From: Nitrospirota bacterium | GTDB lineage: Bacteria; Nitrospirota; Thermodesulfovibrionia; Thermodesulfovibrionales; JdFR-88 | Direction of reading: 5' to 3' | NCBI GenBank assembly: GCA_021813405.1 | Contig: JAKAKS010000013.1 | Span: 1 to 39,050, forward strand | Length of the DNA: 39,050 nt | Part shown: piece after piece, positions 689 to 19,204 of the stretch | How positions within the stretch are numbered: position 1 is the stretch's first letter | How the letters are laid out: every line of letters begins with the position of its first letter | Made by a program: the position numbers and the translations under genes | The notes under the pieces: generated by a model | What the model was told of the DNA's origin: nothing | What the model saw: only the letters and a program-made list of their open reading frames with translations | The model's database searches: none

Positions 689-777
689 GTCGCTGTCCCT
701 ATTTTTTCTATTGGTACGTCAAAGACTTTAAAATTACGACTCACGGGAAAACGGTCGCTGTCCCTATTTTTTCTATT
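689..777. repeat. Two direct copies of a 24-bp REP-like element
   Basis: GTCGCTGTCCCTATTTTTTC followed by TATT occurs at 689-712 and again at 754-777, 65 bp apart in the same orientation. It shares TGTCCCTA with the 33-bp tandem repeat at 96-161. I associate such GGGACA-type elements with RAYT transposases, but that link is inference. The second copy lies inside the 3' end of the neighbouring minus-strand gene and encodes its last residues. Confidence 0.75.
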
Positions 778-1394
778 TTTTGACGGCAACAGGAATGTAA
801 TATAGTTTTAGAATTATGCCCACAAGCTTTAATATCGTTTGGCAGTGCAGATCTTCCTTCCCTAAATTTATGGCTCACCCATTTCTTGAACTGTTCAACT
901 AAATCTTCGTCATGGTTAACCCGTGTCCCTCGCCCTCCGGCTAATGAGAGCAGATGCTCCGGTAATGGATGGGCTTTCTTGCCTAAATACCAGAATTTTT
1001 TGGATACAAAAACCCATGGGTGTTTCGTATCCTTTATTTGAAGGTCAGGGTCTTTATGGAAATCAGTTTTATGCTGCTGCCATTGCCCCTGGGAATCAAA
1101 ACTGTAGAAGTTATCTCCGTGCCTCTGAATCAAGGTTCCCCGCACGCGAGGCCGCTTATTTAAAAACCTTTTGTCTTTAAAATAAGCATCCATGTGGATA
1201 CATTCACTGACAATCATGGCATAGAGGAATTTATAATCTCTTTTTTTGTCGAGAAATCCTGCAATCCAGTCACCAGGCTCGACTCGTGACCCCTGGTGGT
1301 TTGGCGTACATACCGCAAGAGTGCACCAACCCCAGAACGGGTTTGGTGCAATACCAGTATCATGCTTTACTATGTAGGTATAGAGCCTGCTCAT
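741..1394 (-). CDS. Nucleotide modification associated domain 2 (Nmad2) protein
   Basis: 217 residues. The N-terminus SRLYTYIVKHDTGIAPNPF, then GWCTLAVCTP and a GDWIAGF motif, matches what I know of the Nmad2 family: 'Y.Y.V..D.G.APNPF.G.CTLA.CKP' followed by 'GDW..G'. Later HGDNFYSFDSQGQWQQ and FWYLGKKAHPLP correspond to the family's GDN.Y and YWG/IP segments. The domain was named because relatives occur with enzymes making modified DNA bases; no activity is established for this protein. No modification enzyme is nearby, so the gene is an orphan. The ATG at 1394 has no clear Shine-Dalgarno and an A/T-rich leader. The last ~11 residues, IEKIGTATVFP, come from a REP-like repeat, so the original C-terminus was probably replaced. 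Confidence 0.75.
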   Translation of the reverse strand: MSRLYTYIVKHDTGIAPNPFWGWCTLAVCTPNHQGSRVEPGDWIAGFLDKKRDYKFLYAMIVSECIHMDAYFKDKRFLNKRPRVRGTLIQRHGDNFYSFDSQGQWQQHKTDFHKDPDLQIKDTKHPWVFVSKKFWYLGKKAHPLPEHLLSLAGGRGTRVNHDEDLVEQFKKWVSHKFREGRSALPNDIKACGHNSKTILHSCCRQKIEKIGTATVFP

Positions 1395-1540
1395 TTTTGG
1401 ATAGTAATATACAATTTTTGAGAAAATTTTGGAAGTAAAACTGCGGAGCGAATCTTCGCCTCAAAAACCGACCACAAGCAGTGAGGTATAGAAGGGGAAA
1501 TTCGCATCCCGCCAAAGATATATTAATGTGATGGGTTTCA

Positions 1541-1656
1541 GGTTTACCAAACACCGGCCGCACTTAAAACCATGACATCAACTTAATGACATATGTCATA
1601 TGGACAATGTCATATCCAGCCGTTTATTATGGCCTTGTGTTAGGGGGCTTGCCCCC
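1541..1656 (+). repeat. Copy A of a diverged ~120-bp block (23-bp core plus G/C hairpin)
   Basis: Within the otherwise geneless stretch 1395-2004, this segment aligns with the reverse complement of 18824-18944. A 23-bp core (1591-1613, starting ATATGTCATATGGACAATGT) is identical to 18871-18893. ATGTCAT half-sites recur in it, and 1585-1598 is the perfect palindrome ATGACATATGTCAT. A perfect GGGGG-CTTG-CCCCC hairpin (1643-1656) lies 29 nt past the core, against 28 nt in the other copy. Left of the core, similarity continues to about 1541 with small indels. It may be a regulatory region plus flanking coding remnants; see copy B. Confidence 0.6.
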
Positions 1657-1760
1657 GATATGCTCTTTGAAAAAATTACAGAAAAAACCCGGATGCGCCG
1701 TAAAGGCCATGCAGAAAATATGGCCTACGGATAGAGTGGATTCCCCAGCCGGGCCGGAGA

Positions 1761-2120
1761 ATGACAGCCAGTGCGGAATCTGGCAAAAAGAGACTTAATC
1801 CTCAAAAACCTAAAAAAAACAGCTACTTGGGGATTGGAACAAACTTTACAGAGCGAAAAGCCAAAACCTTTAAAAATCAGGCACTTAGGGCAGATAGGGT
1901 AACGAAGCTGATGGAACAGATGGAACAAAAATTTGCGGCTAACAGGCTGAAATCAAAGGAAAGCCCCGAAAAGGCTGGAACACATAAAAAGAAAAGGGGA
2001 CCGGCTACTTCTTCATGCCTTCGCGGAGAATGGCCACCTTGCCGGTGCGCACCAGCTCCTTTATCCCGATGGGGGTCATCAGGTTTACGAAGGCGTCTAT
2101 CTTTTTTTCGTCCCCGGTAA
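1761..2120 (+). pseudogene. Possible decayed relative of the small HTH gene at 18.4-18.8 kb
   Basis: This open frame of 119 codons starts at ATG 1761 and runs 116 bp into the 3' end of ilvN, so at most its first ~80 codons can be meaningful. It is downstream of copy A just as the HTH gene is downstream of copy B. It shares GGAGAATG at its start, a QKPK segment (DNA CAAAAACCTAAAAA versus CAAAAGCCTAAAAA), and a late RADR...EQMEQ resembling the HTH protein's C-terminal RADET..IEQIEQ. The helix-turn-helix itself is absent. The resemblance is short and could be chance. The rest of 1395-2004 shows nothing else I can identify. Confidence 0.25.
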
Positions 2121-18294: not shown

Positions 18295-18371
18295 GCCGCA
18301 CGCGGGAGGCCTTTTTTTTAGTGTTCAAATGAAGACTTGCAAGTTGCTGTTTTAAAATCATTTTAAGGATT

Positions 18372-18800
18372 TTACTGTTCAATCTGTTCAATCCTGCCGG
18401 TTTCATCAGCCCGGCTTTCCCCGGCTTTTTGTTTGCGGGCCATCTGCATGGCCTTATCAGTCAATATGGCGGCGCAAACCACTTTATCTTTAAGGGAAGC
18501 GGCATCCACGTTGTAATCCGTAATTCTGTTTAAGAAGTGGTCGGCCAGAAGCAGATTTTTTGCGGCGGACCGCTCCCGTACCTCCCTCAGGAGCGGGGCG
18601 GTCTTCTCATGCGGCTCCTTCATAATGTTGTGCACACTGCCGATACTAATCTCCAGAGCCCCGGCAACCTCCCTGTAAGAGCGCCCGGACTCCAGGAGCA
18701 CGCGGGCCATATCCCTTTTGGCCTCCGCAATCCTCTCTCTTTTGTTTTTAGGCTTTTGCAACTCCAAAATACCGGGCATTAAATCCAGTGGTGAATCCAT
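18372..18800 (-). CDS. Small helix-turn-helix protein of unknown function
   Basis: 142 residues. Residues ~39-61 (GRSYREVAGALEISIGSVHN) form a clear helix-turn-helix of the kind found in resolvases and phage small-terminase-like proteins. The rest is charged helix ending in IEQIEQ. I do not recognise the family. ATG 18800 is chosen because AGGAG precedes it; the open frame continues upstream but through non-conserved sequence. The region 23-145 nt upstream is copy B of the ~120-bp block, with its palindromic half-sites and hairpin, so the protein may act on that DNA. It lies upstream of feoB, but feoB has its own promoter. Confidence 0.75.
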   Translation of the reverse strand: MDSPLDLMPGILELQKPKNKRERIAEAKRDMARVLLESGRSYREVAGALEISIGSVHNIMKEPHEKTAPLLREVRERSAAKNLLLADHFLNRITDYNVDAASLKDKVVCAAILTDKAMQMARKQKAGESRADETGRIEQIEQ

Positions 18801-18823
18801 CCCATTCTCCTTTCGTGCGCCTG

Positions 18824-18944
18824 GGCGGGGTAAACCCCCGCCGCGCCCGCATATCATAAAACGGCGAAACATGACATTGTCCATATGACATATTTCATGA
18901 AGTTGATGACATGGGTTTTGGGCGCTACCGGCTCTCCGGGTAAA
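18824..18944 (-). repeat. Copy B of the diverged ~120-bp block upstream of the HTH gene
   Basis: It is the reverse-oriented counterpart of 1541-1656. The 23-bp identical core is at 18871-18893. A hairpin GGCGGGG-loop-CCCCGCC (18842-18824, minus strand) lies 28 nt past it, then AGGAG and the HTH start. On the other side similarity runs through CATGGGTTTT and CCGG to GGTAAA. The hairpin sequence differs from copy A but its place and G/C character are kept, which suggests selection on structure. ATGTCAT half-sites spaced 14 bp apart could be protein-binding sites. Confidence 0.6.
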
Positions 18945-19064
18945 TGGATTTCTTTTTGGGTTGATTTTGACGAAAAGGGCAATGCGGCAGCGGTAGTGAG
19001 CGAAGTGGGCCGCGCGTGCCGGCGTCTGCAAGCGCCTTGCTGGAGACAGCTCCGGCGCCAGTAA
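18897..19064 (+). CDS. Possible 55-residue protein divergent from the HTH gene
   Basis: ATG 18897 opens a frame of 55 codons to TAA 19062-19064. The product contains SPGKWISFWVDFDEKGNAAA, which reads like genuine protein sequence, followed by a Cys/Arg-rich tail. There is no Shine-Dalgarno and the start overlaps copy B. In copy A the matching sequence is broken (VLSAAGVW then stop, with a one-base shift), so the frame may once have been coding. The remaining 19065-19204 shows nothing I can identify. Confidence 0.3.
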   Translation: MKLMTWVLGATGSPGKWISFWVDFDEKGNAAAVVSEVGRACRRLQAPCWRQLRRQ

Positions 19065-19204
19065 TGCCGCAAGGCTTGTATGAGGTGAGGCGCGGTACCA
19101 ACAAAGACGAACACCGCCCGCTAAAAAAGCAAACCCCGGCTGTTAAGATTCAGGTATATCGGCGAACGCCGCAAACAAGCTTGCCCCAACGGGAAACCCA
19201 GACC

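Follow-up and report, generated by a model that had tools for sequence, protein, structure and literature searches.

A dispersed element of Nitrospirota with a dyad operator, a boxA-like motif and, in its complete form, an HTH gene

The window analyzed here, the 39,050-nucleotide contig C3 of the 2.9-Mb draft genome (G000) of an uncultured Nitrospirota bacterium, carries two copies of a block of about 120 bp that is probably the promoter end of a dispersed element, most copies of which would be non-autonomous, MITE-like derivatives of a cassette whose HTH gene probably controls its own promoter. The data support a dispersed element restricted to one family; its gene-bearing parent can be traced and its regulatory motifs are conserved. 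It is apparently undescribed so far: no description was found in the open-licence literature, an earlier one elsewhere being possible. The repeat family has as its only gene one for a predicted DNA-binding protein, and the stages from the complete cassette to ORF-less units are seen in living relatives. Two questions have become testable: how such a unit spreads without a recognizable transposase of its own, and what keeps the operator, the boxA of rRNA type and the GAACA sites conserved at places scattered over the chromosome.

The starting point was an earlier note reporting that two blocks of the window are homologous in opposite orientation and have an identical 23-bp core. Their local alignment scores 81, compared to a maximum of 23 among 1000 shuffles, and positions 18871–18893 and 1591–1613 are reverse complements of each other (23/23). 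In a genome search with the block as query, where the best 40 of 84 candidates were scored, the second window copy has an E-value of 3.8e-14. The half-sites described as lying 14 bp apart are present and belong to a 43-bp dyad with four half-sites, and the G/C hairpin claimed for both blocks is found at 18824–18842 (minus strand; GGCGGGGGTTTACCCCGCC) and 1643–1656 (GGGGGCTTGCCCCC). The observation was real and understated. Homology of the pair extends to a common GAACA-repeat tail (1912–1990 plus; 18322–18391 minus), and one of the copies encloses an HTH gene (18372–18800 minus). The interpretation of the pair as a dispersed module, regulatory or mobile, and not as a product of chance, is supported by the 42 operator sites detected at ≤3 mismatches in the window's genome and the 33 in its congener (G001), and is extended by the HTH-gene parent and the motifs; reversed-pattern controls gave 0 in this search as in the other two motif searches. 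The expectation of many copies beside HTH genes held in part: the element encloses such a gene in the one window copy, at G000:C47 and in copies from other genera, but almost every copy in the window's genome is without one.

The anatomy of the element was deduced from an alignment of 45 operator copies. The operator, ATGACAT-N7-ATGACAT|ATGTCAT-N7-ATGTCAT, is a 43-bp dyad that precedes the parts described next in the reading direction. A −35 box (TGGACA or TTGACA) overlaps the right arm of the dyad and, with TTATGATG as −10-like box, gives a promoter-like core (T[GT]GACA / TTATGATG). A GC hairpin whose sequence differs between copies is found downstream of this core. Among the stem pairs changed between orthologs (28), 12 still pair and 16 are broken, with a mean folding z of −0.54; selection on the pairing itself is at best weakly indicated. 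A boxA-like motif, G[CTA]TCTTTGAAAA, is present in 31 of the 45 operator copies (about two thirds), while control stretches from these loci contain 0 and a shuffled set has on average about 0.2. It matches the boxA GTTCTTTGAAAA of the 16S (rrn) leader of the window's genome, so that a boxA equal to that of the organism's own rrn lies shortly past a promoter-like core, as in an antitermination leader.

After boxA comes a variable tail, which closes with three T[T/G]GAACA heptamers and an A-run. This terminal motif was located independently at 35 places, nearly all of them with at least the promoter core upstream; some of these elements have the core and lack the full dyad. In 36 of 37 distinct tails, against a mean of 12.3 in shuffles, the three heptamers are of one type, an agreement that may reflect two element lineages rather than one binding protein. 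The tail motif is duplicated in tandem at loci L036 and L026, and L036 has one motif of the TGGAACA type and one of the TTGAACA type. A protein-coding tail was ruled out because heptamer spacing shifts by single bases and several copies contain stops. The window gave no Rfam match at the gathering threshold, and no tRNA genes were found in it.

The complete form is exemplified by copy 1 (~18313–18912, minus strand). Motif search places its operator at 18870–18912, with four ATGACAT/ATGTCAT half-sites, one of them degenerate, and pattern matching assigns it a putative promoter core at 18852–18883 (−35 TGGACA, −10 TTATGAT). The GC leader hairpin GGCGGGGGTTTACCCCGCC (18824–18842) folds at −18.9 kcal/mol with its flanks. 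The HTH gene (142 aa; 18372–18800) takes up the stretch from promoter to tail; it has its own Shine-Dalgarno sequence and ATG (AAAGGAGAATGGGATG, 18798–18813) and homologs between like ends elsewhere. The GAACA tail (18313–18391) overlaps the 3′ end of this gene, and its TTGAACA heptamers (18385–18391, 18376–18382 and 18322–18328) are followed by an A-run. Directly upstream of this copy, at ~18986–19160 of the window, lies a second, unrelated dispersed repeat with 'GACGAACACCGCCCGC', which is also found beside other copies of the element (L024, L044, L116, L117; 83–87% identity across 200–400 nt).

Copy 2 (~1491–1997, plus strand) is of the ORF-less form. It begins with an optional left module common to a subset of copies (GAAGGGG...GGTTTCAGG..., 1491–1571), followed by the dyad operator identified by motif search (1572–1614) and, with conserved position, a promoter-like core at 1601–1632 (−35 TGGACA at 1601–1606; −10-like TTTATTATGG at 1623–1632). 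The GC hairpin GGGGGCTTGCCCCC (1643–1656) folds at −10.1 kcal/mol with flanks. The boxA-like sequence GCTCTTTGAAAA (1662–1673), to be compared with GTTCTTTGAAAA of the rrn leader, comes next, and the GAACA tail occupies 1912–1997 with TGGAACA at 1912–1918, 1921–1927 and 1976–1982, then ACATAAAAAGAAAAGG. The copy is adjoined by a gene for an Nmad2 nucleotide-modification-associated protein (741–1394, minus strand; Pfam E 2.1e-47).

The union of strict motif matches, with one or more per locus, amounts to at least 68 loci on 37 contigs of the 2.9-Mb genome. Copies were gathered through searches and selected stretches, and all copy numbers are lower bounds. Seven genomes of the family contain between 4 and 35 promoter cores each, and two more contain one; the core is absent from the 19 genomes of other families searched at the same threshold. 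Outside the window's genome the exact operator-promoter pattern was found only in the MAG Nitrospirae bacterium DBS2-1.bin64. Copies sit between genes in random orientation relative to their neighbors (classes of 11, 10, 9 and 9), which rules out a regulon of the downstream genes. At L077:1639–4709 (G000:C4) an operator copy without a GAACA tail lies ahead of genes for two secreted-looking proteins of 174 and 868 aa that have no PHROGs match, with sugar-nucleotide and polysaccharide genes alongside.

Like ends enclose genes for homologs of the HTH protein at G000:C47 and in genomes G001 (the congener), G002, G006, G011 and G039; relatives of the protein at G000:C47, in G001 and in further genera of the family occupy the same place within the element. 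A more distant HTH group precedes GAACA tails in a second family of this order (G039), in which six cassette copies or fragments were observed (L215–L218, L220, L221), several with the identical right end TTGAACCTATAAAAAAAGGAGATGGCAACGATT. Frames that are decayed or internally deleted, with promoter and/or tail kept, were identified at L196, L220 and L221. Related genomes thus hold three types of unit, namely complete, with the HTH gene partly deleted, and ORF-less. Since the HTH gene is intact in some of these like units, partly deleted in others and absent from the rest, ORF-less copies are most simply read as internal-deletion derivatives of the HTH cassette. In this respect, as derivatives of a gene-bearing parent present in many dispersed copies, they agree with MITEs; the parent carries an HTH gene and no recognized transposase.

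Searches of Pfam, NCBIfam and PHROGs with the HTH protein gave weak HTH-type matches only, and this element-borne protein has no match to a transposase family above cut-off. A phage or plasmid origin of the gene was rejected, as no relatives of the protein were found in IMG/VR, GenBank phages or PLSDB plasmids. Homology to a 'CAP repeat' protein was not accepted: the best PDB profile hit (E 1.4e-5) spans 39 helix residues and the rest are sub-significant. Single-sequence structure prediction was unusable (mean pLDDT 51.7).

Nineteen of the 20 congener copies examined are at positions where the window's genome also has a copy; movement in this genus is therefore mostly old. In an operator-blind sample, whose loci were located by their flanking genes, the operator was kept in the sister species at 10 of 15 informative loci. 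The other five comprise three without the element, one with the tail only and one with a different, operator-less element. The locus L151/L024 has in G001 an operator-less element with a TTGAACA tail and in G000 an operator-bearing one with a TGGAACA tail. Mismatch was computed for 30 orthologous pairs: it is 4.2% in the operator, a figure biased because many loci were chosen through an operator match in both genomes; boxA shows 4.0% and the GAACA heptamers 1.8%, both free of this bias. The rest of the tail (9.7%), the upstream flank (10.6%) and the hairpin (9.1%) differ more. In shared copies the three motifs are accordingly ~2–5 times better conserved than adjacent sequence (Fisher P: operator versus flank 1e-14; boxA versus tail 0.001; GAACA versus tail 8e-5). 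Operator mismatch in the blind sample, from nine fully readable copies, is 27/387 (~7%), with no gaps. Differences between orthologous operators are located at degenerate positions.

The near-identity of five copies in G006 (90–96% across ~280 nt) suggests a later spread of the element in that genome. When copies from G000 and G006 were aligned and their left ends (TCCGGC.../ATGACAT...) inspected by eye against their right ends (GAACA..AAAAAAGG), no terminal inverted repeats were seen. A target site duplication is visible neither at the five G006 copies nor at polymorphic loci, though rearranged flanks and imprecisely placed ends limit this observation. The comparison of G000/G001 and G006/G008/G010, flanks again being rearranged, yielded no clean empty site with a duplicated target.

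These properties invite comparison with known repeats. Correia elements are MITEs of Neisseria with terminal inverted repeats, sigma70-like promoters, a protein-binding site and dozens to more than 100 copies (PMC10969869). The Nitrospirota element resembles them as a short, non-autonomous, promoter-bearing repeat in many copies with a candidate protein-binding site. It differs in that no terminal inverted repeats were found and in its boxA, GAACA tail and HTH-gene parent, features not described for Correia elements in that review (PMC10969869). REPINs consist of two inverted REPs forming a hairpin and are associated with the tyrosine transposase RAYT (PMC3116915). Like them, the element is a dispersed, extragenic, non-autonomous unit with a single small gene as supposed partner; unlike them, it combines a single dyad at one end with a dissimilar GAACA tail at the opposite end, and its HTH protein, in contrast to RAYT, matches no transposase family above cut-off. 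Identity with REPINs was rejected, neither two inverted REPs nor a RAYT partner encoded within the element being found. The element behaves like a promoter-bearing MITE such as Correia, yet we do not file it as a MITE or REPIN because the copies compared showed neither terminal inverted repeats nor, at flanks that are rearranged, a target duplication, and no transposase was seen. Antitermination signals of rrn leaders and of the phage nut type comprise boxB, boxA and boxC (PMC10250234). The element shares with them a hairpin and then a boxA soon after the promoter-like core, the boxA matching that of the genome's 16S leader, but it has no rRNA following and no lambda-N-like gene was found.

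The mechanism we propose starts from the complete cassette of operator-promoter, leader hairpin, one gene of about 142 aa and GAACA-repeat tail. Most copies, including the one at ~1491–1997, would have lost the HTH gene, apparently via internal deletion, while keeping the ends and usually boxA. Our best guess is that the four half-sites are occupied by the HTH protein or one of its relatives, which would thereby mask the −35 box of its own promoter. Circumstantial support for this autorepression comes from the operator covering that box and from the half-sites on its two sides, which change alike between lineages (TGTCAT, TTTCAT; TGTCATATGGACAATGTCAT here and TTTCATATGGACAATTTCAT in G039). Once the block is lifted, a boxA-equipped transcript would run towards the GAACA tail. 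In rRNA operons boxA equips the transcript against Rho-dependent termination, and by analogy the element transcript may be protected likewise. An enzyme acting on the element ends would have spread the unit. What we infer from the sequences is that the core acts as a promoter, that the operator is bound by the HTH protein, that boxA brings about antitermination and that an enzyme mobilizes the unit; the anatomy, the copy number, the series of HTH-gene states, the random orientation, the presence or absence of copies between species and the motif conservation are observed directly.

Conservation of the motifs at fixed loci is unexpected of inert remnants and speaks against this explanation. The missing inverted repeats, target duplication and clean empty site, the lack of a transposase-like match for the HTH protein and the mostly old movement in this genus weigh against it as well. 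It may be, though we hold this rather unlikely, that the HTH cassette seeded dozens of operator-controlled boxA units since recruited by the cell, with operator, boxA and GAACA sites under selection as a regulatory RNA or chromosome-wide network. Equally tentative is a host regulon or non-coding RNA family, in which copies would be host units making a regulated boxA transcript or serving as binding sites. The conservation of all three motifs (operator, boxA, GAACA) at fixed places across the 30 orthologous pairs, the location of operator differences at degenerate positions and the identity of boxA with that of the rrn leader would all fit such units; the inconsistent downstream gene and orientation, the divergence of the tail sequence between motifs to the level of the flanks and the missing operator at 5 of 15 informative loci of the sister species do not.

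A chromosome-organizing site like matS or parS, where a nucleoid or partition protein would occupy the dyad and the other parts would be incidental, would account for many conserved, dyad-symmetric sites in random orientation on 37 contigs. It is hardly credible, as the dyad is tied to the −35/−10 core and to the downstream tail, and many elements with promoter core and tail are without the full dyad. Derivation from a phage late promoter and leader, the operator-promoter coming from a Mu-like phage and the scattered copies being debris, is improbable too, if somewhat less so. The hairpin and boxA resemble phage antitermination sites, and one copy heads an endolysin-terminase-portal-capsid operon in both species; however, the exact operator pattern is absent from IMG/VR and the HTH protein from IMG/VR, GenBank phages and plasmids, no recognized phage genes flank other copies, and units with an HTH gene occur in other genera without phage genes. 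The element as a promoter-bearing derivative of the HTH cassette is the reading we retain.

The operon just mentioned (L075, G000:C50:1–3143; L131, G001:C81) is a Mu-like head operon at the same chromosomal place in the two species, with the operator at its head and genes for an M15 endolysin, terminase, portal, protease and major head protein. It is possibly a defective prophage or gene transfer agent. As for its operator, either a domesticated phage cluster captured the promoter, or the operator hints at a more ancient connection with phages.
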